Source: Limonium bicolor (Eukaryota > Streptophyta > Magnoliopsida > Caryophyllales > Plumbaginaceae). Taken from it: a stretch of 64,000 nt of DNA. Under the pieces are notes generated by a model. It was given only the letters and a program-made list of their open reading frames with translations. It ran no database searches and was not told the DNA's origin. The stretch is taken from assembly GCA_023374045.1 (NCBI GenBank), contig CM041782.1, forward strand, positions 251,433,810-251,497,809, read 5' to 3'. Below are positions 2,395-42,584 of this stretch, piece by piece. Both the position numbers and the translations under genes were made by a program. Position 1 is the first letter of the stretch, and the number at the start of each line of letters is the position of its first letter.

Positions 2395-3575
2395 TTCCAA
2401 ATGACAAGAGGCAGAGTTTGGAGCACAAGTCAACGAATCTGGCACTGGGTAAGAGTTTTGTCAGTGCATCGACAGTCTGGTCCCAAGTGTGCATGAAGTG
2501 AACAGTTAAACCGTCATTAATTAGCAATCCTCTCCCGTACAAAATGAAAGTCAACTTCTATATGCTTCGCTCGTGAGTAAAATACGCGGTTAGAGGCGAG
2601 ATATGTAGCCCCAAGGTTGTCACACCAGAGAGTCGGTGGCGTTCACAAGTACACCCCCAGTTCAGCGAGCAACTGTTGGAGCCAGATGACCTCACAAGTG
2701 GCCTGTGCCAACACACGGTACTCTGTTTCTGTCGTGGTTTGGCGACAGTCGCTTGCTTCTTCGACTGCCACGACAACAAATTGTGCCAAAGAAAAATGAA
2801 AAAACCTGTTGGGGATCTACGGTCGTCCATGCAACCGGTCCAGTCAGCGTCAACAAAGGTTGAAATTTGAAGCGAGGAGCTAGCCGAGAGAAAGAATCGA
2901 AGATGGCGAGTGGAGTTCAGGTATCTTAGAACCCTCGTTAGCCCTTTCAGTGATTATCTATGGGATTATGCATATACTGACACAATTTGTTCACTGAGAA
3001 ACTTATATCCGGTCATGTTAATGATAGATATTGTAATCCCCCAAGTAAACTGCGAAATAGAGTAGGATCTGTGAACATGGATGAATTTGTTGTAGAAAGA
3101 CTGTTGTTTGTGGCTAGAGGTGTTGAAACTGGGCGAGAGTTTGTAAGCTTAGCTCGAGCAACTAGGCCAGAAGTGTAGCGCTCTTGGGATAAAAACACGC
3201 CTTGAGAGGTCTTTTCAACTTGAATGCCCAGAAAATAATGGAGTAGACCGAGGTTTTTGACCGGAAAATAGGATGAGAGTTTAGAGATGAACTGAGAGAT
3301 TATCTTGGGGGAGTGGCCTTTCAAAACAATATCATCCACATAGATTAATGCAAATAGGGTTTCTGGGCCAGAGGAGTAAATGAATAGATAGGAGTCTGCC
3401 TTAGTCACACGAAAACCTAGAGAGATGAAAGTGGAGCTAAGCTTAGAGAACCAGGCTCTAGAAGCCTGTTTTAGGGTGTAGATTGATTTGTGGAGGTGGC
3501 AGACATGGTTGGGGTACAGTGGGTGTGTAAAACCTGGGGGTTGACTCATGAAAACATTCTCCTGTAAGTCCCTTT
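2395..3575 (-). pseudogene. Ty1/copia reverse transcriptase-RNase H fragment (broken)
   Basis: The best open part (3013-3549, 178 codons) carries copia RT (RVT_2) hallmarks: IYTLKQASRAWF, the catalytic IYVDD, and YFLGIQV. After a frame change the minus strand continues into copia RNase H, with DRRSPTGF and LSWQSKKQATVA at 2558-2830. A tail resembling the end of copia polyprotein (LTKLLPSARF) lies near 2400-2470. Only the last third of pol remains: no integrase, protease or gag is visible upstream, where element E1's LTR begins at 3682. Disabled by frame changes and truncation. Family assignment is firm; lineage is not determined. Confidence 0.85.
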
Positions 3576-3681
3576 TAGAAGGAATTTGCTAACTTTGATG
3601 TGAAGAATGATTATATTAATTGCCTTCTTGCGACTGATGTACAGTGTGTTACATATATATAGTAGGGTTTTAGTGTAAAAC

Positions 3682-7020: not shown

Positions 7021-8211
7021 TGAAATACCTCAAACCTAAGTAAGTTAAGTAAACATCAATTTATGATGTAATAAGGCTAAAATAGGCCTTAGAAAGATTG
7101 GTAGACAATTTAGGCCATAGGAAACACAAGGAAACACCTTAAGAGCGATTTAAGCAAAAACATGCTCTAAGCTTGGAGTAACTTTGGGTAACACCCAAAT
7201 ATCAATCTTAGACCATGGTAACATGCTAATGGACATGTTAAATCAATTACCAAAGAAAACCAAGCTCAAAAACAAGCTTAAACACAAATTGTGCTTTAAG
7301 GACTCTTAAAGCACATTTTTGAAAAATTGTCTTAGAAAGGGGTTTTGAGTGGCTAAATGCCTATGATTATATCTTAATAAACATCTGTACTAATTTGTAT
7401 CACATTAGGAAGCCTAAATTAATGGTAAATCAAAAATTTCACAAATATGTGCACTAATTTGTGAATAGTGCTTAAATAGTGCTAGTTTAGCATTAAGTCA
7501 ACATAAGTCAATTAATTGGTCAACGAAGACCATAACTAGCCTTATTTAACAAGGGGGGGGGGGGGTTTCTAAGGGTTGTGAGTCACCACAACATGCTAGC
7601 CAAGTTGGAAAAGAAGAAGGAAATAAAGTAAGGTAACAATTCACCTTTTAAGGAAAATATCTCATATTAGCTTACCTCTCTCCTCTTCTTTCTTCATTTC
7701 TTCTTCTTCCACCGATTTCTCTTCTTCTCTCTATTCCAAAACCATGAGTGCTGCTCCTCCATGGTTCTCCATCTCCAATCACTTACCAAATACACAATAT
7801 TGCTCCAAATAAAAAACAAACCTTATATTATTCTTAGTTGGAGCAAGACCTCCATTTCTATCTTTTCAAATATTCAAAAGCTCAAGTTTGGTGCCATGGA
7901 GAAACTCCATTGAAGGGGGAAAATCAAGTTTGAAGAGCTCATTTGGTTCTTCATTCATCCTAGGTAATGAAAGTGAAAGACAAAATCAACCTTCCACCCA
8001 TTTTAGTCATTACCGAAAATTTATTTCTCATGAGAGTCTTGTCTTGCCATTGTTCTAGCTTGATTCTATTCTCCATGGACTAGAGGAGGTCCTCTTTGAT
8101 TCATATCCAAGCCTATTTTCAGACTTCAAAGGTAAACATTCATTTTAGTACCTTAAAACACATTTTTAACCTAAGATTGGATTCCATGAGTTTAGGCATG
8201 ATGCTTAGTAC
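7021..8211 (+). repeat. Solo LTR A, part 1
   Basis: Begins TGAAATACC. LTR A continues at 26128-26247 and 31871-35188, where it ends in GGTGTTACA. Flanks GTTAG (7016-7020) and GTTAG (35189-35193) are a perfect 5-bp target duplication, and no internal coding region is left, so this is a solo LTR of about 4.6 kb. Element M is inserted after 8211. A run of 13 G lies at 7553-7565. Confidence 0.85.
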
Positions 8212-8598
8212 TGTAACACCCCTACTACGCACATAACACTACTTGAAATCGCAGCGGAATTTAAACAACTAAACAGTAACTAAACGAATGGTGCTACAAC
8301 GCCGTCAACCACCCACGTGGTTAACAAGGCTGAATAAATACAATTGTACCGGTCTGATGATCAGACTCCCGAGCATAGAACTAATAACCATATATACATT
8401 AAACAAAATACCGAGTGTTTACATACATCCTTCACTGTTAAACATCACTGTAACCCGTTCATAACCAATATATACCGCCACGGGAGCACAGGCGCATCCC
8501 GGGCCAACATCCAAAAGTAATCAAAAGTAAACCTGCATCCTAGGATCTAAAGCCACTCCGCTTCTTCGATCTCATCCTGCAGTATAAGAAATATGGAT

Positions 8599-8610
8599 CC
8601 CCCGAGGGGG
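8599..8610 (-). promoter_or_regulatory. Conserved perfect hairpin in LTR
   Basis: CCCCCGAGGGGG followed by TCAGCA. Equivalent hairpins lie at 18989-19000, 23169-23180, 34803-34814 and about 47065-47076, near the same end of each LTR and beside a splice-acceptor-like TTNCAG|GT. The function is unknown; a structured leader or a terminator-like element is possible. Confidence 0.55.
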
Positions 8611-9562
8611 TCAGCAACCCTTGGCTGGTATGGTTAACGCGCAGCCCATCGGCTACCGGGATACGCGCAACTAATTGTCATGATAACATGGCATTCATTT
8701 TTATACATAACATAACATAACATAATATGTGGCATAGCATCAATAGTGCACAGCACAACATCACATACACAGTGGATCTTCGTTCCACAATAACAAACCA
8801 CGAAGGTCAAATAACATAAGAGCCTAGAGAATGATTCACCCTCATGTTAAGCTCGTTACACACACTCATTACCGTTCTGTTATTCGAACGAGTAACTTAA
8901 GTCACAGATGGTTCGGATATAGTGACCCGAACACACCACACAAACACATGTTCCCACTAAACCGATCATAAGTCAGAATAGGTAAGCTTTGGAGGAAGCT
9001 AGCGGGAGATCGAACGCCAAATTAAGGAGAACAATCTTAACAACATAAGAGTCGAATCTGATTCAGATATCTACTCTTAACTTACATGCATGACCGGAAA
9101 ACCGGATTCCTCACTTCCCAGTTAACACTTGTTAGAAGTTCATGGTGGAACTTAACAACCAATACACAATAGGTGGTAAGTCATGTTAGACACACACAAG
9201 GGAAATGAGTCACATCATAACATCACAATAATATGAACAACTGTAAACTCATTACATGTTTAGATCTTATAACGTCATAAACACACAGAAAAACATACAA
9301 CACACAAGCCGGTGTAAACCGGTAGGCAACAGACTGCAAGAAAACCATACCTTGGTCCTTGCCTTAATTGATTTCCTCCGTAGGTCACTCCTATACATGA
9401 TTAATAATGTCGGTTAATTATTTATTTAACTTCAAACTTACTAAATGTTTAACATGATCGTATGACATGTTTTTAATGTCCAACTTACTCTAGGTTACCT
9501 TCATTATACCCTAGGGTTAATTACATAAGTCACATTCTTTTCTGTTTTTTTTTACAAGTTTT

Positions 9563-9893
9563 GGTCCGACCGACCTTACCGACCGACCTTGCACAAGGTC
9601 GGTCCATTCCAGAACATATTTCCGTCAAAAGTTTCTACTCCGACCGACCTTGTAAGTTCGGTCGCATGTTCGGTCCATTCCCGAGAGTTTCTTCCCTTTG
9701 AAAATTCAGCCCGACCGAACTTGCCAAGTCTGGTCCCATGTTCGGTCAATTCCAGTAACTTAATCCGTACACAAAATACAAGCCCGACCGACCTTGCAAG
9801 TCCGGTCCCCAAGGTCGGTCCATTCCAGAAGCCAATTCTCGCAGGGTAAACTGGGCTCGACCGAACTTGCAAGTTCGGTCGCAAGTTCGGTCT
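9563..9893. repeat. GC-rich dyad array in M 3' LTR (5 units)
   Basis: Five units pairing CCGACCGACCTTG or CCGACCGAACTTG with AAGGTCGGTC or AAGTTCGGTC, each followed by CCATTCC-like spacer, period about 65-75 bp. Several units contain ACCGAC, the core of plant DRE/CRT sites bound by CBF/DREB factors. Binding is inferred only. Confidence 0.85.
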
Positions 9894-12158
9894 GCCCCAG
9901 ACCCTTGTTTTCCTTTTCTCATTCAACTCCAAACTTCACCCCATGTATCCTAGTACACCCTAATCTTATTTGGGCACTTCAAACACACCTTAAGACATCC
10001 TTAAACACTCATAAAACTCCTTTTCTAATTCCTTAAGCCTTTACTCATTTCTTCCCAAAATTCCTAACACTTATGCTATTTCCTCCTTAGTTTCTCAAGT
10101 GATGTTTCATACTTATAATAACTACTATCCCAAAATGCTTTCTCCTCATTTTAACATCATCTCCCAAGCATCACTTCTTACCATCAACTCCTTATGTCAT
10201 TTCTGGAAATCCTTTTTCAAGTTTACACTTTCTCCTTGTTCACCAAAGTTTGCCCAATCCTAACACAAGTCCAAATGACTCTAGTGTATCCCAAAACATT
10301 CCTTACATTTAAAATCCTCTAGAACATTGCCTAAGCCCTTCTCACATCTTAAATCACCTTAATGCATGTTTCTTTCACAAGGAAGGCACCTAACCATTCT
10401 AAACACTTCTTAACTTATCAAACTCATTTTAAACCCTTAGAACTTCTTGTTTATTACCTAAATTTCGACATAGGTTCTCCTAGAACATTACTAAACCAAA
10501 ACATATTGTTTTCACCAACAAACAACCAAGAACACTAAAAATCCATCAAGCACTTTCTTATACACAAACTTCACTCATATAGCACTACATCACAATATAG
10601 TGCATAATTTAAATTGCATGGCACTTAGGCCCTTAAATGACATGGCTCTTAGGCCCTTAAGATGCATAAATCATAAACACTGAATTTCCACAATATATTT
10701 GCCTTTGACCTGCAAATACACTCAACAACACATATGCCTTTTACTAGTCTCTTGAGAACACTTTACTAAGTCATTCACCATTTGCTCTTTAGGTAGTTTT
10801 AACAAGCATTATAAGCTCATTTCTCCTAAGGCATTAAACAACATTAGGTTAGTATATTTACCTCTTTTCCAAACAACTTCTTTCTTGTTTCCTTATAAAA
10901 CCGGTAAGGTATTTGATTCCTTGTCAAGTTCTAAACAATATACAAACATCATAATGAGTATTCAAGCTTTAAGCTTCATCTCATTGTAAACCCTAATTTT
11001 ACATTGTTTCAAAAACATTAATGTAGTTGTTTTACCTTGATCTTTGAAGAGAGTTTGAATATCTATGAAGAGAGGAATCCACCTAGTCCATGAAAGGTTG
11101 GAATGAAGCTAGAACAAAGTCACACAAAGAGCACCATTAATGTGCATTTTCGGTCAAGGTAAAAACATGGAAGAAACTTGATTTTTCTTTGAGATTCCTT
11201 ACCTAGAAGCAAAGGAGATCAATAATATGTAGAAACACAAGCTCAAGCTCCTTCAATGGTGGAACTCCATGGCACCTAAATGGGGCTCTTGAAGTTTTGA
11301 GAAGATAGGAATGAAGAGCTTGATGAGAGGAAGAGATTGGTGGTGTTTGTTTTTGATTTGGACAAGTGAGCTAGATTTTACAAGAGGTCAAAGCTTGAGT
11401 TTAATGGTGGTGGTGAGTATTACCGTGAGAGAACAAGAAGAAGAGAGGTTGAAGAAGAGTTGAACCGTGTGAAATGAGAAAGAAATGAGAGAATGAAGAT
11501 AAACTTTGCTTTTTGAAGATATTTGTTCTTATAAAGCAAATAGTACATTAATTAGTCATTCTTTCTTTTCTTAGTAAATTAACAAGAGAGTGGTGAGTCA
11601 CACACTTAAGAAAACCGGCCCCCATTAGTACTTAGGGGTAATATAGTCTTTATTTGTCAATTTAATTACTTATACAAACATATGTTACAAAATAGCTTAT
11701 TAAAATCACTATTCATAAAAACAAGGCACATAGAAGTGAAATTTTTGATTTCCCATTGATATAGACTTCCAAATGTGATACTATATAGTACACATGTTAA
11801 TTAAAGAGTAATGATGGACATTTAGCCATTCAAAACTCATTTACAAGACAATTTTTCAAAAATGTGCTTTAAGACTCCTTAAAGCACATTTTGTGTTTTA
11901 ACTTGTTTCCAAGCTTGGTTTTCTTTGGTAATTGGTTTAATATGTTCATTAGCATATAATTAAGATCTTGGTAAGTTCATTAGGTCTTAGCCAAGCTTAT
12001 CCCTAGCTTAGAGCACATTTTGGCCTTTATTGACCTTAAAGCACAATTTGTGTTTTCTGTTGTTTAAATTTGTTTACTAATGTTTCTAAGACTCTTTTTA
12101 GTCTTAATATACCATATTTAGGTGTTTAAACAATATACTAAGGTTTGGGGTATTTCAA

Positions 12159-12174
12159 TCTACCCCCCTTAAAA
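12159..12174 (-). promoter_or_regulatory. Element M 3' polypurine tract
   Basis: Plus strand TCTACCCCCCTTAAAA, which reads as a purine tract on the element's sense strand, directly adjoins the LTR end at 12157. This is the expected plus-strand primer site. Confidence 0.85.
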
Positions 12175-12489: not shown

Positions 12490-12726
12490 CTAAGAAGTAA
12501 ACAATGACGGGTACTTCGCCCTCATCTTGTCTTCCAGCTCCCAAGTGGCCTCCTCAACGTCCTGGTTAGACCAAAGAACTTTCACCAGTCTCACAGACTT
12601 ATGGCAAGTGTCTTGAGTCTTAGTATCCAAAACCCGTACCGGAGTCTCCACTGATCGCATGGTCGGCTCTAAGGTTAGCCTTTCAGGCTGAAGCACATGA
12701 GACGGATGAGACATATACTTCTTCAA
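12490..12726 (-). CDS. Integrase C-terminal tail with chromodomain-like end
   Basis: Continues the integrase frame after a TAG stop at the codon preceding LKKY. Related elements read HVSQLKKY, so the stop probably replaced a Gln codon. The 78-codon piece ends VRLVKVLWSNQDVEEATWELE, the C-terminal motif of Tekay/Del-type chromoviruses. Such tails are thought to steer integration towards particular chromatin. Without readthrough of the stop this part would not be made. Confidence 0.85.
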   Translation of the reverse strand: MKKYMSHPSHVLQPERLTLEPTMRSVETPVRVLDTKTQDTCHKSVRLVKVLWSNQDVEEATWELEDKMRAKYPSLFTS

Positions 12727-13998
12727 CTAGGACACATGAAATACATTATGTACCTTGCCCAGCTCGGCGGGTAGATCAAGTCTGTAAGCTACCGGGCCGA
12801 TCCGCTTCGTCACAACATAAAGCCCCACATATCTTGGGCTCAACTTGCCTTTCTGGCCAAAACGAAATACTCCCTTCATGGGGGATACTCTCAAAAATAC
12901 CTGATCGCCCACGGCGAACTCCAGGTCACGTCTGCGCACATCTGCGTACGACTTTTGTCTATCCTGAGCTGCCTTCATGTTAGCCCGGATCTGGTGAACT
13001 TCTGCCTGAACTTGTTCAAGATACTCTGGTCCTATAATGACCATCTCACTTGACTCATCCCAGCATAATGGCGTGCGGCATGGTCTACCGTACAAGGCCT
13101 GGAAGGGAGACATCTTGATCGATGCATGATAACTGTTGTTGTAACTAAACTCGATCAGATGTAACTTATCAATCCAGCTGGTCTGAAAGTCAAGTGCACA
13201 TGCACGTAGCATATCCTCAAGTGTTTGAATGGTGCGCTCACTCTGACCATCGGTCTGTGGGTGAAACGCTGTACTCAATTTCAGTTCGGTACCCAATGCT
13301 TCTCGTGTAGACTTCCAATACCTCGATAAGAATCTAGTATCTCTGTCAGATACAATTGTTTTCGGTACCCCATGATGTCTTACAATTTCTCTATCAAAGA
13401 GTTCTGCCAGTTTTGCCACTTTCCAGGTGTCCTTCATCGGGATGAATCGGGCCACCTTGGTCAGTCGGTCAACAACAACCCATATCATATTTAGACCTCC
13501 CCTTGTAGGCGGAAGCCCTACTACGAAGTCCATGGAAATATCATGGAACTTCCACTCAGGCACTGGCATTGGCTGTACCATACCACCAGGCCGTCGGTGC
13601 TCAAACTTGACCTTCTGGCAAGTGAGACACCTCAACACATAATCACTTACATCTTTTTTCATTCCAGTCCACCAAAAATATCTTTTCATACTCTTATACA
13701 TCTTTGAAGCTCCGGGGTGAATCGAAGTAGTAGAACAATGGGATTCACTCAATATGCGCTCCTTCAACTCAGCGCTACTCCTAGGTATACACAATCGGCC
13801 ATTAAGCCTAATCAGGTCATCATCGTGGAGTCTGAAGTCGTACTTCTGACCCTCAAATGTGCCATCAATAAGCTTCTGCCGGATCTCCACCATATACTGA
13901 TCCGTCATCTGAGCACTCCGCACCTCTTCAACCAAGCCAGTATGAGAGACTAGCGAATGGAGAGAGTGTGCTCGGCGACTCAACGCGTCAGCTACCAC
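12727..13998 (-). CDS. Ty3/gypsy integrase
   Basis: The first residues (VVADALSRR) are the usual end of gypsy RNase H. Zinc-binding HHCC is present at about residues 87, 94, 124 and 127. The catalytic core keeps D157 (SMDF), D218 (VSDRD) and E254 (GQSERT), with exact D-35-E spacing. The C-terminal GPY/F-like motif reads KLSPRYVGLYVV and is slightly altered. It ends at a TAG in the VFHVS(Q) context. Integrase inserts the cDNA into host chromatin. The frame is offset from the upstream RT frame by a one-base deletion in a T run (plus strand 14061-14065), so pol was one polyprotein originally. Catalytically it looks intact. Confidence 0.95.
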   Translation of the reverse strand: MVADALSRRAHSLHSLVSHTGLVEEVRSAQMTDQYMVEIRQKLIDGTFEGQKYDFRLHDDDLIRLNGRLCIPRSSAELKERILSESHCSTTSIHPGASKMYKSMKRYFWWTGMKKDVSDYVLRCLTCQKVKFEHRRPGGMVQPMPVPEWKFHDISMDFVVGLPPTRGGLNMIWVVVDRLTKVARFIPMKDTWKVAKLAELFDREIVRHHGVPKTIVSDRDTRFLSRYWKSTREALGTELKLSTAFHPQTDGQSERTIQTLEDMLRACALDFQTSWIDKLHLIEFSYNNSYHASIKMSPFQALYGRPCRTPLCWDESSEMVIIGPEYLEQVQAEVHQIRANMKAAQDRQKSYADVRRRDLEFAVGDQVFLRVSPMKGVFRFGQKGKLSPRYVGLYVVTKRIGPVAYRLDLPAELGKVHNVFHVS

Positions 13999-14042
13999 AT
14001 TTGCCTTACCCTCTTTATATTGCAGATTAATATCGTAGTCAT

Positions 14043-15867
14043 TCAGAAATTCAACCCACCTTTTTGTCTCATGTTCAACTCCTTCTGAGTGAACAAGTAC
14101 TTTAAACTTTCGTGGTCAGAATAGATTGTCACACTTACCCCATACAAATAATGTCGCCATATCTTCAATGCGAAGACAATGGCACCCAATTCTAAGTCGT
14201 GGGTAGGGTAGTTCTCCTCATGCTTCTTCAGCTGTCGGGAGGCGTATGCTACGACCTTCCCGTGTTGCATCAATACACAACCCATACCTCTACCTGATGC
14301 GTCGCAGTAGACCTCAAAACCATCTGGACCGCCTGGTATAGTCAGGACTGGTGCAGATGTCAGAGCATCCTTGAGACTCGTGAAAGAACTCTTACAGTCG
14401 ACTGTCCACTCGAATGGTGCATCCTTCTTCATTAAGGAAGTCATCGGCTTCGAGACACTGGAGAAGTCCTTCACAAACCTCCTATAATAACCTGCCAGGC
14501 CGAGGAAGCTCCTGATATTGGTAACTGTCTTCGGCCTTGGCCAGGTGCGCACAGCATCAATCTTTGCCGGATCAACAGCGATCCTGGCCTCAGAAATCAC
14601 ATGTCCAAGAAAGGATACTTGGTTCAACCAAAATTCACATTTCGAAAACTTTGCATACAACTGATTCCTCCTCAATGTTTGTAACACATTTCTCAGGTGG
14701 CTTTCGTGCTCACCTCTCGATTTTGAGTACACAAGAATATCATCGATGAAGACTACCACAGACTTGTCCAACTGATCTTGGAACAAGCGGTTCATTAAGT
14801 CCATGAACTTAGCTGGTGCATTTGATAAGCCAAACGGCATAACTGTGAACTCATAATGCCCATACCTAGTTCTGAATGCTGTCTTTTCGATATCACTGTC
14901 ACGGATGGCAATCTGATGGTATCCGGATCGTAGGTCTATCTTGGAGAATACTGATGCTCCCCTCAGATGATCAAATAGATCGTCGATGCGTGGTAAAGGG
15001 TAACGGTTCTTCACCGTAAATGCATTCAGCTCCCGATAGTCAATACACAGGCGGAGGCTACCGTCCTTCTTCTTCACGAAGAGGACCGGCGCTCCCCATG
15101 GTGAAACGCTAGGGCGGATGAACCCCTTGTCGAGTAGGTCTCTCAGCTGCTCCTTGAGCTCTGTCATCTCTGATGGAGCCATACGATAGGGCGCCTTCGC
15201 AATTGGCCCGGTACCCGGAACCAAATCAATCTCAAACTCCACTTCCCGTGCTGGCGGCATGCCCGACAGTTCCTTAGGAAATACATCAGGAAACTCCGAC
15301 ACTACCGGCACATCTGGGCTAAACTCTGGATCTCTCTCTATGTCCTGGACATAGCAGAGGTATACATCACTCCCTCGTCGTAGTTCACGACACATAGCCA
15401 TGGCGGTGATGATCTGAGTCGAAGGCTCCTTGGGCCTCTGGCGATAAGATATAGTAACCCCAGATGGACTCCGAAGAAGCAGTCGATGCTCGGCACATAG
15501 GATTCTGCCCTTGTACCGCTCCAACCAGTTCATCCCGACAATCACATCAAATCCAAGTCCGTCGAACTCTATCAAGTCGATCGGAAACTCTTCATCTCTG
15601 ATTCTTACAACAGCATCTCGGTGGTAGCGGGTGCACCTGATCCGCTCTTTCGACGGGAGAGTGACTAGAAAGTCTGGCATCTCACCACCGTCTAACCCCA
15701 GCCTCTTCGCAAAATATAGCGAAATAAATGTGTGCGAGGCTCCGGAGTCGAACAAGATCGAAGCGTCCACGCCATTGACTGGAAAGGTACCGGTGAGGAT
15801 TGTGCCGCTCTTGCCGGCTTCTGCCTCATTGCAGACACTAGTGTACCTCCCGTTCCGAGTGCACAGC
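14043..15867 (-). CDS. Protease, reverse transcriptase and RNase H of element M
   Basis: The open frame of 575 codons from 15770 is preceded in frame by about 30 codons back to a predicted splice acceptor at 15868. An aspartic protease motif, [10 protein letters not shown], lies at residues 6-15 counted from 15770. RT has D279 in [12 protein letters not shown] and FIDD at 341-344. RNase H has D490 (VYCDASG), E527 and D552. The frame stops at 14043 because an A run lost one base (plus T run 14061-14065); the next frame continues ETKRWVEFL into the integrase reading frame. Family: Ty3/gypsy chromovirus, order PR-RT-RH-IN. No ATG-dependent start is implied; pol is expected to be made as a fusion with the AlkB exon. 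Confidence 0.95.
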
Positions 15868-16058
15868 CTAATTCATTGGCAAACTAATAAGTATTGGGTA
15901 ACAACACGGTTGATATACTTCAATAACTCCACTTTATTCATTAACACATTCCCCTTACAACATTGTTGGTTTACACGGTTGACATAACTTAACACATACA
16001 TAACTTCCTTAACATATACTGGCTTAACATATTACATAGTTATACAAGGCTTTAAAAC
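15868..16058 (-). other. Predicted intron 4 between AlkB and protease (191 bp)
   Basis: AT-rich, stop-dense interval. On the sense strand a CA|GTTTTA donor follows the AlkB LTFR motif, and an AATTAG|GC acceptor precedes the protease exon. Splicing there would keep the reading frame (phase 2 to phase 2) and fuse AlkB to pol. The donor is weak, so the exact site is uncertain. Confidence 0.5.
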
Positions 16059-16390
16059 TGTCTGAAGGTCAAATTCAAACGTCCAGGTTTCATGTGTGTG
16101 GCATTGATCACTGCCGACGGTGCGGTATTCAGTTTGATCTTTCTGATGCCATGATATAGCATCCTTGATTGCCCACCCATGATTAACACATCTCCTGACT
16201 TTAGTATTAACTTCCTTGCGAGATCAGCACGCTTCTGCTCGCCATACACAAACACTGCGGTATCACCAATGGACCAAGACACCACGGGTACTCCCTTACT
16301 TAGAGACTCGGGTGACTCGTCCTTATCTTGGTGTAAACCTAATCGTCCACCTTTCTGGTAGAAGTTCACAATACACAAATCTGCTTTCAC
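16052..16390 (-). CDS. AlkB-type Fe(II)/2-oxoglutarate dioxygenase, catalytic half
   Basis: This intact 112-codon stretch is the catalytic half of an AlkB domain. Counting from 16390: iron ligands H20 and D22 in LHQDKDE, distal H80 in LYHGI, and 2-oxoglutarate-binding R104 and R110 in GRLNLTFR. Family enzymes oxidatively remove methyl groups from nucleic-acid bases (m1A, m3C, in some members m6A). It resembles cellular bacterial AlkB and plant ALKBH1-type proteins more than the AlkB domains I know of in plant RNA viruses. It lies between gag and protease of element M on the same strand. The first codon is GTG, so this is an exon, not a stand-alone gene; the upstream half is in other frames. 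A role in repairing or demethylating element RNA or cDNA is inference. Confidence 0.92.
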   Translation of the reverse strand: MKADLCIVNFYQKGGRLGLHQDKDESPESLSKGVPVVSWSIGDTAVFVYGEQKRADLARKLILKSGDVLIMGGQSRMLYHGIRKIKLNTAPSAVINATHMKPGRLNLTFRQF

Positions 16391-16743
16391 ATCTGGAATT
16401 GAATCCGTTTCAACTGTTGAGCAATTCCCACGGCGTGGTTAACGACCGCACGAAACTCCTCGGGTATACTTGATACTGTTGCTCCGTCTTCAGCTCGCAC
16501 TTCTTGATATGTCTTGGTGTAAGGGTTCCAGTCCTTACCCATGCACATCATCTTCAATTGCATTCTTGATCCGTTCGGGTATTCGGGGTGTGTAGAAACC
16601 TCCAGGTCTTGCTCCTAGTTCATCGCATCGTCTGATGATATGGGATTTGTGCTTCCGGTGTCAGGTATCCATTTAAGAGTATCATACCTGGCTGGAACCT
16701 GACATTGCTCCATTGGAAAGTCGGTGATGTGTGATGGTGGTTT
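16391..16743 (-). pseudogene. AlkB domain, N-terminal half, frameshifted
   Basis: Translating all minus-strand frames gives a continuous AlkB N-terminal half: a PGMILLNGYLTPE segment, then CDELGARPGGFY, then LKMMCMGKDWNP. These match the substrate-lid and core of ALKBH1-type proteins. The frame changes three times, near 16641-16644 (C run), 16585-16593 (C and CA run) and 16395-16425. Each is consistent with a single small indel at a short repeat. Either this copy has decayed recently or the assembly carries indel errors. An intact sister copy would show which. Confidence 0.8.
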
Positions 16744-16934
16744 CTTCAGGGTTTGGTGTGGGTGGGATTGGATAACATATAGTGAGGTTCCTTTAAGTTT
16801 AGAATTATCTAATTAGGTGACTTTCATACTATACTTTAACTCTTCACTCACATGATGACACATTGGACTCACTAGTACACACATGCATGAAATGCGGTAT
16901 GCAATCATATTACATTCAACAGTTTAGGCGGTAC
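16744..16934 (-). other. Predicted intron 3 between zinc knuckles and AlkB
   Basis: AT-rich, stop-rich interval of about 190 bp separating GC-richer coding segments. The sense donor is AGACCAG|GTACCG at 16934 and the most likely acceptor is CTGAAG near 16744. The acceptor choice is tentative and other AGs lie nearby. Confidence 0.4.
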
Positions 16935-17271
16935 CTGGTCTAGAAGAGGGCCCTGGCGCCTCAGACCGGTCCACATTCAGGGCGGCCTGCTAGGTCCCGA
17001 CCCCTTCCCCTTCTGGGAATCAGTGTGTCTATGATCTGTGGGTGGCTGGTTAGCCGTCTTCGGGCCATCAATTGCTGCTATGGCCTTACCCTTCCACTGC
17101 CCCTTGGGCTTGTTGACTCTGCTGTTGGGGTTCCGGTAACACTCGTAGTCACGGGACCCCCACTTCTCGCAGTAACGGCACTGTACTTCATTTCCCGCAG
17201 TCCTTGCCGGGGTGGTCTCCATTGCACCCTACAGTAATAGTGGCGCTCCGGTCCAGAGCCCGTGCTAGCTG
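16935..17271 (-). CDS. Gag exon 3: two CCHC zinc knuckles (damaged)
   Basis: Nucleocapsid part of gag. The first knuckle begins HYYC and continues, after a frameshift, as NGDHPGKDC. The second is CRYCEKWGSRDYEC, where the usual His is Ser. A basic, Lys/Pro-rich tail follows (PKGQWKGKA). Retroelement knuckles bind and package genomic RNA. E2 carries the homologous exon at 51130-51347 with a perfect second knuckle. The exon is bounded by predicted introns 2 and 3, and the intron 2 join restores frame. Confidence 0.8.
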
Positions 17272-17351
17272 CTATCACAATACACATTCAATACTTGTTT
17301 CACAACTTATCAACATACACTTCAACTTATCACACATAATTAGATAATTAC
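17272..17351 (-). other. Predicted intron 2 in gag (80 bp)
   Basis: Sense CCTAAGG|GTAATT to TGTGATAG|CAGC. AT-rich and stop-containing. Splicing joins a phase-1 codon cleanly. E2 has an 83-bp intron at the same codon (CCTAAGG|GTGAGA to CCATTAG|GCACC), also frame-preserving, with little similarity inside the intron. Confidence 0.75.
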
Positions 17352-17607
17352 CCTTAGGTGGGTAAGAGCGTAGGGGTTCCGCATAAGCATATGTGAGCTT
17401 CAATGGCTCCTCAGCTGTGGTGGTTAGAGGCTTGGGCCTTGTCACCCTGGTGCTGACTCTTTTGGGGCTGGGATAAGGTTTCTTCTTCTCTTCCTCCCCC
17501 GTACCCTGCGGACTCTGGCCCTCACTCGTGGCCTTGCGCTTGTGCGCATTCTCCTCGTCCCTCAGACGGACGGTGATCTCCACCTTAGCAGCGGCATGAT
17601 AGCACTC
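17352..17607 (-). CDS. Gag exon 2: charged linker
   Basis: The exon begins with ECYHAAAKVE immediately after predicted intron 1 and runs about 85 codons of charged, Ser/Thr/Pro-rich sequence (EEEKKKPYPSPKR) to predicted intron 2. E2 starts its exon with ECYDAASRTE, showing homology across the splice junction. This part connects capsid-like gag to the zinc knuckles. No catalytic motif. Confidence 0.75.
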
Positions 17608-17706
17608 CTGAATTTAGGATGTCAGTCATGCCCCGCAAAACATACTCACAAATTCACATTAATACTCACTTATAGACTACACATTTTCACATCACTTTTA
17701 AATTAC
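17608..17706 (-). other. Predicted intron 1 in gag (99 bp)
   Basis: Sense CTTGCAG|GTAATT to CTAAATTCAG|GAGTGC: strong donor and acceptor, AT-rich, with stops in frame. Phase 0 on both sides. E2 has a 79-bp intron at the identical codon (CATCCAG|GTATTA to GATTCCAG|GAGTGT). Conserved position with diverged sequence is the best evidence that these are real introns. Confidence 0.82.
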
Positions 17707-18386
17707 CTGCAAGGTAGTATACTCAGCTGGCCCCATCCCATAGCGAAGACGGTGGCTGAGACCGTTGTAAAAACGGTTTACCAGCCCCGGTTCGAGTACC
17801 CCAGGTCCGGTAACAGGTGGATAAGGCCGGTGAATGCAGTGTAATACTCATCAACCGACACCTTGTCCCCCTGCCTCAGACTATCCAGCTCCAGGCGCTT
17901 GGCCTCTTGAACATGCACAGGGTAGTATTTGGCTCGCAGTAGAGCCGTGTACTCCCTCCATCCAAACTGAGGATCCGCCATCCGGTCCTCTCTCACAAGC
18001 TTCCACCAACTCTGTGCCGAACCCTTCAGGTAGTAAGCGGCAAGACGGACCTTAGCCTCTGCAGGTACAGCCAAGGTCTCGTAGGCGGTCTCCAACTCGG
18101 AGATGTACGCCTCCAGCTTACGTGGGTCGGTCTCCCCATGAAATGAAGGGGGTCTCAAGTCTGCCAATGCCTTGACCCAGTTGGTCTCTCGTGGTGTGTG
18201 GGGTGGCGGTGGTGGTTGAACTTCGGGGTGTTGCCCCTGTTGAATTGCAGCTACTAGTTGTGGTACCATTTGGGCTACGGCGGCCGCTACAGCTTCGGCC
18301 ATGACCTGGGCCGTAGTATTCTCGCCCTAGTCATCCGTACCTCCAGTACCGCTTCCGCGGCCCCTACCTCGCGGTCTACCTGACAT
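17707..18386 (-). CDS. Gag exon 1: capsid-like retrotransposon gag
   Basis: The start at 18386 (MSGRPRGRGRG) matches E2's MSGGTRGRGTG. A TAG at codon 20 (18327-18329) interrupts it, and the frame then stays open from 18302. The gag core has LKGSAQSWWKLV, AKYYPVHVQEAKRLELDSLRQG and VDEYYTAF, typical of the Ty3/gypsy gag domain (PF03732). A one-base frameshift follows LIHLLPDL, after which RFYNGLSHRLRYGM leads to the TLQ end at predicted intron 1. Gag forms the virus-like particle. The early stop and frameshift make this copy unlikely to give full-length gag. Confidence 0.9.
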
Positions 18387-18586: not shown

Positions 18587-18598
18587 GCTCTGATACCA
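18587..18598 (-). promoter_or_regulatory. Primer-binding site (initiator Met tRNA)
   Basis: The sense strand reads TGGTATCAGAGC, complementary to the 3' end of plant initiator Met tRNA, four bases from the 5' LTR. It fixes element orientation and the 5' LTR boundary. Confidence 0.93.
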
Positions 18599-19988
18599 CT
18601 TTTGTAACACCCCTACTACACATAACACTACTTGAAATCGCAGCGGAATTTAAACAACTAAACAGTAACTAAACGAATGGTGTACAACGCCGTCAACCAC
18701 CCACGTGGTTAACAAGGCTGAATAAATACAATTGTACCGGTCTGATGATCAGACTCCAAGAGCATAGAACTAATAACCATATTATACATTAACAAAATAC
18801 CGAGTGTTTACATACATCCTTCACTGTTAAACATCACTATAACCCGTTCATAACCAATATATACCGCCACGGGAGCACAGGCGCATCCCGGGCCAACATC
18901 CAAAAGTAATCAAAAGTAAACCTGCATCCTAGGATCTAAAGCCACTCCGCTTCTTCGATCCTCATCCTGCAGTATAAGAAATATGGATCCCCCGAGGGGG
19001 TCAGCAACCCTTGGCTGGTATGGTTAACGCGCAGCCCATCGGCTACCGGGATACGCGCAACTAATTGTCATGATAACATGGCATTCATTTTTATACATAA
19101 CATAACATAATATGTGGCATAGCATCAATAGTGCACAGCACAACATCACATACACAGTGGATCTTCGTTCCACAATAACAAACCACGAAGGTCAAATAAC
19201 ATAAGAGCCTAGAGAATGATTCACCCTCATGTTAAGCTCGTTACACACACTCATTACCGTTCTGTTATTCGAACGAGTAACTTAAGTCACAGATGGTTCG
19301 GATATAGTGACCCGAACACACCACACAAACACATGTTCCCACTAAACCGATCATAAGTCAGAATAGGTAAGCTTTGGAGGAAGCTAGCGGGAGATCGAAC
19401 GCCAAATTAAGGAGAACAATCTTAACAACATAAGAGTCGAATCTGATTCAGATATCTACTCTTAACTTACATGCATGACCGGACAACCGGATTCCTCACT
19501 TCCCAGTTAACACTTGTTAGAAGTTCATGGTGGAACTTAACAACCAATACACAATAGGTGGTAAGTCATGTTAGACACACACAAGGGAAATGAGTCACAT
19601 CATAACATCACAATAATATGAACAACTGTAAACTCATTACATGTTTAGATCTTATAACGTCATAAACACACAGAAAAACATACAACACACAAGCCGGTGT
19701 AAACCGGTAGGCAACAGACTGCAAGAAAACCATACCTTGGTCCTTGCCTCGATTGATTTCCTCCGTAGGTCACTCCTATACATGATTAATAACGTCGGTT
19801 AATTATTTATTTAACTTCAACTTACTAAATGTTTAACATGATTGTATGACATGTTTTTAATGTCTAACTTACCCTAGGTTACCTTCATTATACCCTAGGG
19901 TTAATTACATAAGTCACATTCTTTTCTGTTTTTTTTTTACAAGTTTTGGTCCGACCGACCTTACCGACCGACCTTGCACAAGGTCGGT

Positions 19989-22900
19989 TGAAATACCCCC
20001 AAACTTGGTATGTTGTTTAAACGTTAAATAATAAATTATTAAGACTAAAAAGAGTCCTTAGTAATATTGGTAAACAATTTAAAAGATAAGTAAATACAGT
20101 TAAATGCCTTAAAGGCAATAAAGGCGAAATATGCTCTAAACTTGGGGGTCTTGATTAAGACTTAATAAACTTACCAAGACCTTACTTATTTATTAATGAG
20201 CCTATTAAATCAATTACCAAAGAAAACCGAGCTTGAAAACAAGTTAAAACACAGATGTGCTTAAAGGAGTCATAAAGCACGTTTTTGAAAATTGTCTTGT
20301 AAATGAGTTTTGAATGGCTAAATGTCCATCATTACTCTTTAATTAATATGTGTACTATTTAGTATCACATTTGGAAGTTTAAATTAATGGGGAAGTAAGA
20401 TTACGTTTCTACGTGTCTTGTTTTAGTGAATAGTAACTAAAATAAGCTAGTTTGTAACTTATGTCAATATAAGTAATTTAATTGATCAATAATGACTAAG
20501 TAACCCCTTATATTTAGATGGGGGCCGGTTTGCATGTGGTGAGACGTCACCCTTGCTGTGAATGAACAAATAAGTGAGCAAATCAGTGAGTAATGAAAAA
20601 ACACTATTTGCTTTATGTATTAAATATCCCCAAAAGCAAATTCTATCTTCATTTCTCCTTTCCTCCTTCATCCTTCTTCACAACGGCTGCATCCTCTCTT
20701 CTATCTTCTTCTTCCTTTTCCATCGGATATGCTACAGCTCCAGCACCATCTTCAAGCTTTGACCACATGTAACTCCTAGCTCCATGGTCCAAATTCAATT
20801 TCGAGACCACCGTTCTTCTAGTTGGAGCAAGCTCTTCAACTTAGTCCTTTCAAATCTTCAAGCTCCACTTTGGTGCCAAGAGGAATCTCCATGGAAGGAG
20901 CTTGAGTTCATCTTCTTACGTATTATTTTTCTCCTTTGCTTCAAGGTAAGGAAACTCAAAGAAAAATGGTGTTTCCTCTATGTTTTATGTTAACCAAAGG
21001 TAGCTTAAAATTCCTTTGGAAAATGAACGTACGCTGTGTATTGAAACTACCTAAAGAGCCAATGGTAATGACTTAGGAAAATGTTCTCAAAAGACTAGTA
21101 AGGACCGTATGCTGTTTGTATTTGCAGGTCAAAGGCAATATACTTGTGGAAATTCAGTGTTTAAGGTTTATGTTATTTAAGGGCCTAAGTGCCAAGCAAT
21201 TTAAGTTATGCACTATATTGTGTTTGTGGTGTAATTTGGTGAAGGTTTGTGTGTGATGGTGTTCTTGATGGATTTAGGAGATTTTGAATGTTTATGGTGA
21301 AAACTATGAGTTTTGGAATGGTGATATGCTAAAGAACCCATGGCGAAAATTTGTAAAATGTATAAGAAAATTGGGTAACAAGTTGGACAATGTTTTAAGG
21401 TGAATCGAAGTGGTATTTTGGCATTAGAATATACCTAAGATCATATGGTAAGTTTATACAATTAATGGAGTGGAGAACTAAGGCAACAACACTTGAAAAA
21501 TGCAATTTTAACAATTCTGTAGGTTTGGTCCGGGACCTAGGTTATGGTTCAAGTCCCGGACTATGCATGAAAATAGCCGAGAGTGCCCACTGGTTTTGGT
21601 CCGGGACTTGGGTGAGTACAAGGTCCCGGACCACCCTATGAAATACGCCGAAGATTTTAAGTAAGTGCTGTCCGGGACTTAGGGTATGGGACCAAGTCCC
21701 GGACCACTCTAAAATTGTTGTTTAAGGTTGGAAAATGGTGTCTAATGATGGGGATTGATGGATAATGATGTTGTAAGGTTATTAAGGGCATGTTTGGTGA
21801 GTTATAGTGACCAATTTGGTGGGTGGGAAGTTGGAATAAAATGTGAGGGTAAATCAAGTTAAAGTGTTAAGTCATTTAACTAGTTAACGGGGATAACTAC
21901 GGTCATTCGACGTTACACAACATGTTACCCCAATGTTAATGAAAACAACTTTAATGTACCAGTTGTTCGAGAATTGTTCGAGGAATGTAAGTGGACATGG
22001 TGGAGTGGACTCCGGAGACAGGTATGGTTTTCTTGCAACCTGTGTCCTACCGGATTACACCGGCTTGTGTGCCAATGTGTTTTTCTGTGTGTTTGCCACC
22101 TTGTAAGATAAAACATGAAATGAGTTTATAGTAATTCATTTGTGTGGCGAATCTGGTCACCAATACCGTTTAAACCTCAAATAGGTGTTAAACCTTAGCT
22201 AACCAAATCTAGGTACACATGAGATATCGGTATTCGGAGTTAACGGCCCAAACCTTGGGAACGTTCTAACCACGGCTATGCGTGCGTTAGTGGTGTATGG
22301 TTATTGTTTGCAGGTGTGAACCTCCCTTACATGCTTAACACGGTTGTGATACCGAATGGGTGTGGATGTGATAGGTTCCATAATGGAGCCTTAATTACTT
22401 AACTATAAGTATATGTGTACTAATGGGGGGTGAGGAGTCCGGTCATGTTCCGGCCACGCGTGGATGGACGGGAGTCGATGTCATACCCGGTTCGACTCTC
22501 TTGGTGTATGTTAGGTTGTTTACTCATTGGGTTTCCAATCTTCTTCCCTTTAGCTTAGCCAAGCTTATGTTACTGACTCACGTCGGTTTTCTGGGCATAC
22601 AATGGTTGTTCGGTGTGCTTGGTTTACTGTACCCGACGCACCTTGGTGTTAAGTTACTGTTCATTTAAAAAGAAACGGTAGCAAGTTATGGAACGAGCTT
22701 ATCATGAGTTTGGCAACATTCTCTAGCTCTAAAGTGAACTAATTATGGTTGGGTTGGTTCCTTAAGAGAACCGTACCCGTTGTATTATGTGTTATGGATG
22801 TATTGCAATTCCTATTCGTGTGAAGTTATATGTGGTAAATTGTGGAATGTGGATTATGGTTACGAATTCAGGTTTATAATAAGAAGCGTTTAAGGATAAC

Positions 22901-23561
22901 CCGATTAATGGGTAGATGTCGTCTGTTAAGGAAGTAACTCCATTAAGAGAGAGTCACTCTAGGGTTAAGGGAAACAATGTTGATTTGTTATGTGGGATGT
23001 ATGGATGTGTTGGGTTTGTTGAGCCCTATAGCTGGGCGTATGCAATGTGTTGTGTGTTTATGGTTTACATGCAGGATTTAAATGTATCAACAGCATGCTA
23101 AGACGACAATTAGTTGTGCGTGCCCGTGCATGCGGGCTGCGGGATTACCATACCAGCAAAGGTGCTGACCCCCTTGGGGGCCACCCTTTTTCTCCTTTTT
23201 CTATTTCAGGTACAGGAGCTGGAAGCCGTTCGAGAGTAGGACGGGGTAGATGTTTACATTGGTAGCCTTTAATGGTGTATGTATTATAGGTGTAGTAAGA
23301 CCGAATTTGTTTATCGGCTTGGTTAATGAATACTCGGTACAGTGGGGGATGTAATATGTAAATAATTGTTGGAAATGGAATCAGGATTGTATGGTGTAGT
23401 TGCTCGGGAATCTAGTCCCATCACCGATATAATATGTATGTATTAGCCTTGTTAGCCACGTGGGTGGTTAACGGCGTGTAACACCACGGATTAAGTAATG
23501 TGATGGTTTATGTTTCCGCTGCAGATGGTTATAAAGTGCGACGTGGTGGATGGGGTTTACA
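19989..23561 (+). repeat. Nested solo LTR, opposite orientation
   Basis: TGAAATACCCCC to GGGGTTTACA, 3573 bp, flanked by TCGGT (19984-19988) and TCGAT (23562-23566), a near-perfect target duplication. No internal region, so a solo LTR. It shares the dyad type (GGTCCGGGAC) with E1, and has a CCCCCTTGGGGG hairpin at 23169-23180 and splice-like sites TTCAAG|GTAAGG (20945) and TTTGCAG|GT (21127). Confidence 0.9.
21527..21705. repeat. GC-rich dyad array in nested LTR (3 units)
   Basis: Three GGTCCGGGAC...GTCCCGGACC inverted repeats, about 70 bp apart, in AT-rich flanks. Same layout as E1's array. Confidence 0.85.
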
Positions 23562-26127
23562 TCGATCGTCCATACCAGAACATATTTCCGTCAAAATTTT
23601 CTACTCCGACGACCTTGTAGTTTCGGTCGCATGTTCTGAGTCCATTCCCGAGAGTTTCTTCCCTTTTGAAAATTCAGCCCGACCGAACTTGCCAAGTCCG
23701 GTCCCATGTTCGGTCTGATTCTCACAAAACTCCTAATAAGCTCAATCCTGACTCTACAGGTAACCTCCGGAACCTTGCAAGCCGGTCCCCAAGGTCGGTC
23801 CATTCCAGAAGCCAATTCTCCAGGGTAAACTGGGCTCGACCGAACTTGCAAGTTCGGTCTGCCCCAGACCCTTGTTTTCCTTTTCCATTCAACTCCAAAC
23901 TTCACCCCATATATCCTAGTACACCCTAATCTCATTTGGGCACTTCAAACACACCTTAAGACATCCTTAAACACTCATAAAACTCCTTTTCTAATTCCTT
24001 AAGCCTTTACTCATTTCTTCCCAAAATTCCTAACACTTATGCTATTTCCTCCTTAGTTTCTCAAGAGATGTTTCATACTTATAATAACTACTATCCCAAA
24101 ATGCTTTCTCCTCATTTTAACATCATCTCCCAAGCATCACTTCTTACCATCAACTCCTTATGTCATTTCTGGAAATCCTTTTTCAAGTTTACACTTTCTC
24201 CTTGTTCACCAAAGTTTGCCCAATCCTAACACAAGTCCAAATGACTCTAGTGTATCCCAAAACATTCCTTACATTATAAAATCCTCTAGAACATTGCCTA
24301 AGCCCTTCTCACATCTTAAATCACCTTAATGCATGTTTCTTTCACAAGGAAGGCACCTAACCATTCTAAACATTTCTTAACTTATCAAACTCATTTTAAA
24401 CCCTTAGAACTTCTTGTTTATTACCTAAATTTCGACATAGGTTCTCCTAGAACATTACTAAACCAAAACATATTGTTTTCACCAACAAACAACCAAGAAC
24501 ACTAAAAATCCATCAAGCACTTTCTATACACAAACTTCACTCATATAGCACTACATCACAATATAGTGCATAATTTAAATTGCATGGCACTTAGGCCCTT
24601 AAATGACATGGCTCTTAGGCCCTTAAGATGCATAAATCATAAACACTGAATTTCCACAATATATTTGCCTTTGACCTGCAAATACACTCAACAACACATA
24701 TGCCTTTTACTAGTCTCTTGAGAACACTTTACTAAGTCATTCACCATTTGCTCTTTAGGTAGTTTTAACAAGCATTATAAGCTCATTTCTCCTAAGGCAT
24801 TAAACAACATTAGGTTAGTATATTTACCTCTTTTCCAAACAACTTCTTTCTTGTTTCCTTATAAAACCGGTAAGGTATTTGATTCCTTGTCAAGTTCTAA
24901 ACAATATACAAACATCATAATGAGTATTCAAGCTTTAAGCTTCATCTCATTGTAAACCCTAATTTTACATTGTTTCAAAAACATTAATGTAGTTGTTTTA
25001 CCTTGATCTTTGAAGAGAGTTTGAATATTGATGAAGAGAGGACTCCACCTAGTCCATGAAAGGTTGGAATGAAGCTAGAACAAAGTCACACAAAGAGCAC
25101 CATTAATGTGCATTTTCGGTCAAGGTAAAAACATGGAAGAAACTTGATTTTTCTTTGAGATTCCTTACCTAGAAGCAAAGGAGATCAATAATATGTAGAA
25201 ACACAAGCTCAAGCTCCTTCAATGGTGGAACTCCATGGCACCGAAATGGGGCTCTTGAAGTTTTGAGAAGATAGGAATGAAGAGCTTGATGAGAGGAAGA
25301 GATTGGTGGTGTTTGTTTTTGATTTGGACAAGTGAGCTAGATTTTACAAGAGGTCAAAGCTTGAGTTTAATGGTGGTGGTGAGTATTACCGTGAGAGAAC
25401 AAGAAGAAGAGAGGTTGAAGAAGAGTGGAACCGTGTGAAATGAGAAAGAAATGAGAGAATGAAGATAAACTTTGCTTTTTGAAGATATTTGTTCTTATAA
25501 AGCAAATAGTACATTAATTAGTCATTCTTTCTTTTCTTAGTAAATTAACAAGAGAGTGGTGAGTCACACACTTAAGAAAACCGGCCCCCATTAGTACTTA
25601 GGGGTAATATAGTCTTTATTTGTCAATTTAATTACTTATACAAACATATGTTACAAAATAGCTTATTAAAATCACTATTCATAAAAACAAGGCACATAGA
25701 AGTGAAATTTTTGATTTCCCATTGATATAGACTTCCAAATGTGATACTATATAGTACACATGTTAATTAAAGAGTAATGATGGACATTTATCCATTCAAA
25801 ACTCATTTACAAGACAATTTTTCAAAAATGTGCTTTAAGACTCCTTAAAGCACATTTTGTGTTTTAACTTGTTTCCAAGCTTGGTTTTCTTTGGTAATTG
25901 GTTTAATATGTTCATTAGCATATACTTAAGATCTTGGTAAGTTCATTAGGTCTTAGCCAAGCTTATCCCAAGCTTAGAGCACATTTTGGCCTTTATTGAC
26001 CTTAAAGCACATTTTGTGTTTTCTTTTGTTTAAATTTGTTTACTAATGTTTCTAAGACTCTTTTAGTCTTAATATACCATATTTAGGTGTTTAAACAATA
26101 TACTAAGGTTTGGGGTATTTCAAGTAC

Positions 26128-42169: not shown

Positions 42170-42540
42170 AAATTGTGTCGAGCTATTCTAAGGCGCTGAC
42201 TACCCACAATGATGATATGATGTCAAACTATTCTAAGGCGTTGACTACCTACGAAGTAATGAGATGATGTCAAGCTATTCTAAGGCGTTGACTACCTACG
42301 AAGTAATGAGATGATGTCAAGCTATTCTAAGGCGTTGACTACCTATGAAGTAATGTGATGATGTCAAGCTATTCTAAGGCGTTGACTACCTATGAAGTAA
42401 TGTGATGATGTCAAGCTATTCTAAGGCGTTGACAACCTATGAAGTAATGTGATGAAGTCAAGCTATTCTAAGGCGTTGACAACCTAAAATGTGGAAATGA
42501 GATATTGTCAAGCGATTCTAAGGCGTTGACTGCCTATAAT
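42170..42540. repeat. 47-bp tandem repeat, about 8 copies
   Basis: The unit contains GTCAAGCTATTCTAAGGCG and TTGACTACCTATGAAG. Copies are close to identical in the middle and drift at the ends. Lies in the 3' untranslated part of the Tat/Ogre-like element. Confidence 0.9.
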
Positions 42541-42584
42541 GATGATGACTGGGTGGTATGCAAATGTAAGAATGCTGAAATGCT

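Follow-up and report, generated by a model that had tools for sequence, protein, structure and literature searches.

The window examined here, meaning the whole stretch of DNA that was analysed, comprises 64,000 nucleotides from Limonium bicolor (assembly GCA_023374045.1, contig CM041782.1, positions 251,433,810 to 251,497,809 of the forward strand). One whole but decayed Ty3/gypsy insertion, bounded by long terminal repeats (LTRs), lies on its minus strand and bears an AlkB dioxygenase domain between gag and protease (PR). A family-wide AlkB under selection in a gypsy element is real; from copy alignments and genomic junctions we infer that it is spliced to Gag. The parts of the insertion, in window coordinates, are the following.

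8207..8211, no strand: left target-site duplication (TSD) AGTAC, the same 5 bp recurring at 26123-26127
8212..12157, minus: 3' LTR, TG..CA, from self-alignment of the window and sequence reading
12159..12172, minus: purine-rich tract, called from the sequence, which we take to be polypurine-tract-like
12490..12726, minus: weak chromodomain (Pfam Chromo, E 0.0013, below cut-off)
12727..14115, minus: integrase open frame (open reading frame and Pfam)
14043..15867, minus: PR, reverse transcriptase (RT) and RNase H (open reading frame and Pfam), an exon predicted to follow directly on the acceptor AG at 15869-15868
15933..15938, minus: AATAAA between the AlkB stop and PR, of putative function
16052..16790, minus: AlkB exon, ALKBH1-type, with the stop at its end; frameshifted in the window copy, exon limits predicted
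16791..16934, minus: intron 3a, with donor GTACCG at 16934 and acceptor AG just ahead of the AlkB exon
15868..16934, minus: intron 3 as removed for Gag-Pol, with the AlkB exon inside (copy alignment and genomic junctions)
16935..17268, minus: gag exon 3, encoding zinc knuckles of the CX2C and CCHC types, the latter with its histidine substituted in the window copy
17269..17351, minus: intron 2 (copy alignment; precise loss in L117, L127 and L131)
17352..17607, minus: gag exon 2 (copy alignment)
17608..17706, minus: intron 1, 99 nt, GT..AG (copy alignment; precise loss in L096, L161 and L162)
17707..18326, minus: gag exon 1, coding for the capsid (Retrotrans_gag), with a provisional N-terminal limit; its frame is broken in the window copy
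18587..18598, minus: primer-binding site (PBS) TGGTATCAGAGC, 3' of the 5' LTR, presumably of the initiator tRNA-Met type
18603..26122, minus: 5' LTR, split by a nested insert (self-alignment of the window and sequence reading)
19989..23561, plus: nested solo-LTR-like insert, TG..CA, flanked by TCGGT/TCGAT
26123..26127, no strand: right TSD AGTAC, from sequence reading

Pfam matches follow one another on the minus strand as gag (18326-17778), zinc-knuckle exon, AlkB, PR-RT-RNase H (15872-14043), integrase (14115-12727) and chromodomain (12726-12490), the last a weak match 3' of integrase with 19.1 bits against a cut-off of 25.1. The window copy thus has the features of a Ty3/gypsy element, namely LTRs with TG..CA ends, TSD, PBS and the order gag-PR-RT-RNase H-integrase. 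The LTRs begin with TG and end with CA, and the BLAST pairs reach one chance base beyond these limits. The two LTRs differ by 37 substitutions over 3912 aligned sites and by 25 gaps. Their Kimura two-parameter (K2P) distance of 0.0095 indicates a young insertion, of 0.4 to 2.4 million years at assumed substitution rates. The element may belong to the Tekay/Del lineage, which it seems to resemble.

A first-pass annotation, made from the letters alone, had described a near-complete AlkB with intact iron triad and 2-oxoglutarate Arg residues between zinc knuckles and protease on the element's strand. Its position is confirmed by the domain order and by the profile search which that annotation had proposed: PF13532 matches 16052-16438 on the minus strand with E 7.7e-36 and 124.6 bits (cut-off 31.2), and a second match at 16388-16614 is weak (E 7e-4, below cut-off). 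The residues are there as described, in a 128-residue open piece holding HxD (LHQDKDE), the distal His (LYHG) and both Arg (GRLNLTFR); the frame is not intact, and tblastn with the open relative P0001 places the window AlkB in three different frames. The predicted exon, 16790-16052, is somewhat longer than the segment 16052..16743 first delimited. In a spinach relative without AlkB (P0189), the zinc-knuckle/gag and PR matches are 5 residues apart. In the window, the distance from the gag linker to PR is 1.15 kb, with AlkB filling the gap.

The L. bicolor genome (2.92 Gb) was searched as a whole with P0001. All 150 scored places match it at 73-77% over residues 1-210 or 2-210, and AlkB is stop-free in 137 of them, a share that is biased upward because these were the best-scoring of 50,036 first-look candidates. 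Two sets of loci, both drawn from the best-scoring AlkB matches, were fetched with their surroundings. PR lies just downstream of AlkB in 29/30 and 20/20 loci and gag upstream in 27/30 and 19/20, which makes 49 and 46 of the 50 loci together; at the exception, L107, chromodomain and integrase pieces in reverse orientation occupy the place expected for PR. A DNA search with the window AlkB found 40 places at 94-100% identity, the window counted, which constitute subfamily W, distinct from the first-found set, subfamily A. Both subfamilies carry AlkB at the same place, and it is therefore part of the element. Among the 29 W loci other than the window, AlkB is fully open in 8, open to residue 199 in one (L116) and broken in 20, so that open AlkB is present in the window's own subfamily. 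The 150 genomic matches, their gag and PR context and the 40 W places rule out a single-copy accident or a nested retrogene. The survey of gag and PR flanks, suggested in the first-pass annotation and run here in L. bicolor, thus upholds its view of an AlkB inside an element of many copies, and not in one copy only.

Of 60 loci, 33 have an open copy, and these served to estimate selection on AlkB; within subfamilies, pairs with a synonymous divergence (dS) of 0.02 or less were dropped. Between A and W, the ratio of nonsynonymous to synonymous divergence (dN/dS) comes to 0.116, as a ratio of means over 200 pairs with a mean dS of 1.53; pairs inside A give 0.107 (273 of 300 used) and pairs inside W 0.234 (27 of 28 used). 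For PR the A-W value is 0.167 (130 codons in 26 + 16 open copies). On 24 copies, the AlkB core comes to 0.118, at a proportion of synonymous differences (pS) of 0.65, which PR shares. The iron ligands H118, D120 and H178 and the distal Arg, R208, are found in 33/33 open copies and the other Arg, R202, in 30/33. Changes in the window lineage affect 7 of 73 host-conserved columns against 17 of 40 variable ones (p 8e-5), the conserved columns being defined from 134 proteins taken as hosts. The low A-W ratio indicates that AlkB has been under selection at least since these subfamilies split. AlkB is a fixed, selectively preserved part of the element family. Neutral decay of all copies is ruled out by an A-W dN/dS below that of PR; the comparison among copies that had been proposed at the outset therefore reveals purifying selection, and the catalytic residues of the open copies do not show the decay that was to be watched for. 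It has been considered that AlkB might be neutral cargo, persisting through chance or through gene conversion between copies. Such cargo would agree with the multiplication of broken-AlkB copies and with the youth of the window insertion, but it is very improbable in view of a dN/dS of about 0.12 across subfamilies at this pS, the retained catalytic residues and the avoidance of host-conserved columns.

The AlkB was initially supposed to be of the cellular ALKBH1 type, and this is supported by sequence, fold and phylogeny. A search of 5.8 billion proteins, restricted to 70-224 residues, gave P0001-P0005 as the closest (63-74% identity), followed by plant and bacterial AlkB proteins (49-62%), among the best 120 of 923 matches; longer proteins reach 44-56% identity to P0001 (best 120 of 441). 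Proteins named viral occur neither in the best 120 of 923 nor in the best 120 of 441 longer matches, and a scan of viral contigs found no P0001 relative. In a scan of bacterial and archaeal genomes, the 80 relatives retained out of 578 are all bacterial by title, at 32-47%. The top solved structure for a six-sequence profile is rice 5xeg/5xoi (entry name OsALKBH1, E 4.1e-52), and none of the 21 solved structures listed is an ALKBH5. The predicted model of P0001 has a predicted local distance difference test score (pLDDT) of 95.5. Its top match in a fold search is OsALKBH1 5xeg (template modelling score, TM, 0.93; 52% identity), and ALKBH5 structures rank 39 or lower. Rice OsALKBH1 (5xeg; PMC10469495) and plant ALKBH1C/D-type enzymes are thus the closest cellular counterparts.

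The proposed phylogeny was run on 49 chosen proteins. Element AlkB and P0001-P0005 form one clade (support 99/98), sister to 30 plant ALKBH1-type proteins, a group with support 83/89; 27 of these 30 bear a plant name, P0007 and P0016 are nameless and P0019 has a gene code only. By eye, the element exon corresponds to the host sequence from the F[DN]IC motif through to the stop. Element copies differ from plant ALKBH1 in missing the long host N-terminus and in forming their own clade. AlkB was apparently captured from a cellular ALKBH1-type gene, and P0001-P0005 are likely to be element-borne in other plants.

The gag frame is split by AT-rich GT..AG stretches. When 5 A and 3 W copies were aligned, the exons aligned and the intron interiors mostly did not, and GT and AG were kept; one of these 8 copies has an altered base right ahead of intron 1. 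The donor CCAG/GTACCG is present in 71/80 loci, the AlkB acceptor in 65/80 and the PR acceptor in 71/80. Exon 3 leaves 1 nt in 25/26 cases that are open with the knuckle (donor in 55 loci). The AlkB exon, at AG/GAASCTTCAA, gives 2 nt in 25/29 cases, and the PR exon, at TTAG/GYYRTGSACTCGG, gives 2 nt in 43/46 open cases (acceptor in 53 loci). With these matching phases one donor fits two acceptors, leading either to Gag-AlkB, which ends at the AlkB stop, or to Gag-Pol, in which AlkB is skipped. GT..AG ends, phase match and exact loss in other copies are all features of spliceosomal introns. Neither the gag introns nor the splicing of AlkB to Gag had been foreseen in the first-pass annotation. 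A second, distant gag lies in the window at 57540-56821 (gag 57540-56986), 43-49% identical over 170 + 106 residues and interrupted downstream by other DNA. It shares with the main element an intron-like GT..AG stretch at one codon boundary, Q^E (99 nt and 79 nt), and the shared boundary suggests that this intron probably predates both families.

Both junction patterns were fixed in writing prior to the genome search, and reversed patterns served as controls. The exact gag-PR junction occurs at 22 genomic places and the exact gag-AlkB junction at 13, with 0 for the reversed pattern in each case. Both sets include both subfamilies, as judged by the junction letters. Reading of three gag-PR places out of the 22 shows L161 and L162 to be without introns 1, 2 and 3, and L163 to retain intron 1 and lack 2 and 3. 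They have 81-94% identity to intron-bearing copies of their own subfamily. The one gag-AlkB place read (1/13), L164, is without intron 3a and has 95% identity to L118 on either side. Exact losses of single introns are also found in AlkB-selected loci, of intron 1 in L096 and of intron 2 in L117, L127 and L131. L106 and L108 match a looser pattern.

The simplest reading of the junction copies is that they are reverse-transcribed spliced RNAs. They could otherwise be older elements that never had introns or AlkB, an idea to which the AlkB-less P0189, with gag and PR adjoining in one frame, lends some colour, as does the reading of only 4 of the 35 junction places. It is hardly credible, however, given that the junction letters are subfamily-specific, that the three gag-PR places read are so close to intron-bearing copies, one having intron 1 but not 2 and 3, and that single introns are lost at exact sites as well. 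The 22 + 13 exact junctions, against 0 in the controls, speak strongly for alternative splicing, to Gag-Pol or to Gag-AlkB. Some junction places lie in pairs 9-10 kb apart (C2:353436699 and 353445879; C7:199518922 and 199528128; C2:386603605 and 386613674), possibly tandem or duplicated elements.

Between the AlkB stop and PR, AATAAA is present in 45 of the 47 copies, from 60 loci, in which this could be measured; it lies about 60-75 bases past the stop in A and 110 bases past it in W. This motif could end a Gag-AlkB message, although its presence is only suggestive. The gag-AlkB junctions have themselves been copied, and so at least some such RNAs probably reached the 3' LTR.

The explanation that we favour, and hold to be more probable than not, is that a selectively preserved, captured ALKBH1-type AlkB forms a predicted exon in a gag-pol intron, and that splicing most likely yields Gag-Pol and Gag-AlkB and brings a demethylase into the particle. 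The Gag-AlkB protein is presumably made, as the conserved phases and junctions suggest. By its capsid part it would assemble with Gag into the particle, and by its zinc knuckles it would bind nucleic acid, so that the dioxygenase would sit on the genome RNA and cDNA. AlkB, by its predicted activity, might then clear methyl marks from element RNA or newly made DNA. The first choice of predicted substrate is N6-methyladenine (6mA) or 1-methyladenosine (m1A) in single-stranded DNA or in an RNA:DNA hybrid. This choice was made because rice ALKBH1 acts on 6mA in single-stranded DNA and R-loops, which resemble reverse-transcription intermediates; excerpts of PMC10469495 report removal of 6mA from single-stranded DNA in vitro and a rise of R-loop 6mA upon loss of the enzyme. 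By analogy, an RNA substrate may be likewise possible, since excerpted reports describe the orchid enzyme discussed below (PMC9289625) and tobacco ALKBH1L (PMC12736721) as acting on N6-methyladenosine (m6A) in RNA. The name ALKBH1L may mislead, as the excerpt of PMC12736721 groups its candidates with ALKBH9/10. In its most specific form, put forward tentatively and with more doubt than confidence, the proposal is that a splicing switch packages the element's own eraser, the donor picking either polymerase or Gag-AlkB, so that a fraction of the coat would bear the ALKBH1-type dioxygenase and strip adenine methylation off genome RNA or nascent cDNA in the particle.

AlkB may instead be a free, unfused enzyme whose targets in trans would be chromatin or RNA of the host, one example being to counter silencing. 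This is unlikely, though not to be neglected. The AlkB core opens with an ATG (MILL) in P0001 and in the five element copies inspected, and rice ALKBH1 is nuclear and chromatin-bound and impairs binding of Polycomb repressive complex 2 (PRC2), according to excerpts of PMC10469495. The 35 codons before the core ATG, however, are open in 28/29 copies and constrained (dN/dS 0.256), and this stretch begins at a phase-matched acceptor and is joined to gag at 13 spliced junctions in the genome. Less probable still is primer editing, in which AlkB would remove m1A58 from initiator tRNA-Met and alter the stop point of plus-strand DNA synthesis. The PBS TGGTATCAGAGC, of the initiator-tRNA-Met type, would suit this idea, and human ALKBH1 reportedly acts on m1A58 of tRNA-iMet. 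The same modification normally aids strand transfer, so its removal may do harm.

Several observations weigh against a Gag-fused AlkB maintained by selection. In 4/21 A copies the phase of the AlkB exon differs by one base from that of the donor, the PR exon is out of phase in 3/23 W copies, and a stop stands ahead of the AlkB core in 1/21 A copies. Copies without AlkB, lost as if spliced out, exist at the gag-PR junction places. The 35 codons ahead of the core, at a dN/dS of 0.256, are less constrained than the core itself; A-W dS is near saturation, and dN/dS comes from open copies alone. With the window included, AlkB is broken in 21 of 30 W loci, and at least 7 W copies (L129-L131, L134-L137) seem broken at about the same point, so that this branch probably multiplied while lacking its own AlkB. 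Long proteins fusing AlkB to gag or RT domains were absent from the best 120 of 441 matches. In a blastp comparison of gag exon pieces with 120 pol proteins, none spans the junction. The seven W copies just named multiplied despite a broken AlkB, as if helped in trans or as if AlkB were not needed.

The first-pass annotation had suggested that a retrotransposon using AlkB on its RNA or cDNA would be a new strategy; that it is new in kind is not supported. Excerpts of PMC9289625 describe a Phalaenopsis gypsy element (Gypsy_Pa_2799 family), published in 2022, whose paALKBH5-like ORF2 has m6A demethylase activity in vitro; the case is given there as recent and confined to two Phalaenopsis species of 121 genomes screened. 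So far as that account goes, both families are Ty3/gypsy LTR elements with many copies and a captured plant AlkB with cofactor residues kept, and the AlkB of both is a proposed eraser of methyl marks. The orchid family, as excerpted, belongs to the Tat/Ogre lineage, with a tRNA-Arg PBS, 6.4-kb LTRs and an ALKBH5-type AlkB at the C-terminus of a separate 565-residue ORF2. The Limonium family, in contrast, is probably chromodomain-type, with an apparently tRNA-Met-type PBS, 3.9-kb LTRs, a subfamily dS of about 1.5 and an ALKBH1-type AlkB in a predicted exon of a gag-pol intron. Membership in the orchid AlkB-Gypsy family is ruled out by OsALKBH1 as the top match by sequence, by the ALKBH5 folds ranking 39 and lower and by the position of AlkB between gag and PR. 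What is new here is therefore the ALKBH1 type, the probably chromodomain-type element and the predicted splice fusion, gypsy-borne AlkB as such being already published for orchids. Among the matches listed from the open-access literature searched, no other AlkB-bearing LTR element is named in a title or abstract start.

That a further gypsy family carries AlkB, of a different class, under strong purifying selection and with a likely route into the particle, makes it testable whether plants mark retroelement RNA or cDNA by adenine methylation and whether elements counteract this. If the proposal is true, gypsy elements, taken with the orchid case, have captured erasers at least 2 times from different AlkB classes, which would point to adenine methylation of element RNA or cDNA as a recurrent plant defence. 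Alphaflexiviridae, Betaflexiviridae and Closteroviridae also offer parasitic elements with an AlkB of their own, as excerpted in PMC9289625. Those are RNA viruses, whereas the element AlkB groups with plant ALKBH1 in a tree composed without viral sequences.

Splicing of a polyprotein has a counterpart in Ogre, where, in the excerpted text of PMC6317226, an intron is removed from part of the transcripts and polyprotein parts are joined, much as predicted here. The Ogre intron and spliced env-like ORFs are mentioned in PMC6317226 and PMC7264820. A 2025 review (PMC12786077), in its excerpted part, calls plant LTR elements generally intron-less, with Ogre and EVADE as exceptions, and repeats the orchid AlkB case. 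On that account, conserved gag introns are unusual for plant LTR elements.

Other features of the window were recorded. Rfam, at gathering scores, gave no match anywhere in the 64 kb. The 3.57-kb insert nested in the 5' LTR represents a related family in opposite orientation and is solo-LTR-like. A Ty1/copia reverse transcriptase fragment lies at 2558-3588 on the minus strand (RVT_2, E 2.9e-34, 3013-3588). Tandem-repeat arrays at 42176-43413 and 45403-45867 are near a run of 500 N (43414-43913). P0201 and P0214, two gypsy pol proteins recorded for Labilibacter sediminis and Corynebacterium sp. MC-10, look plant-like, and these bacterial records probably contain plant DNA.
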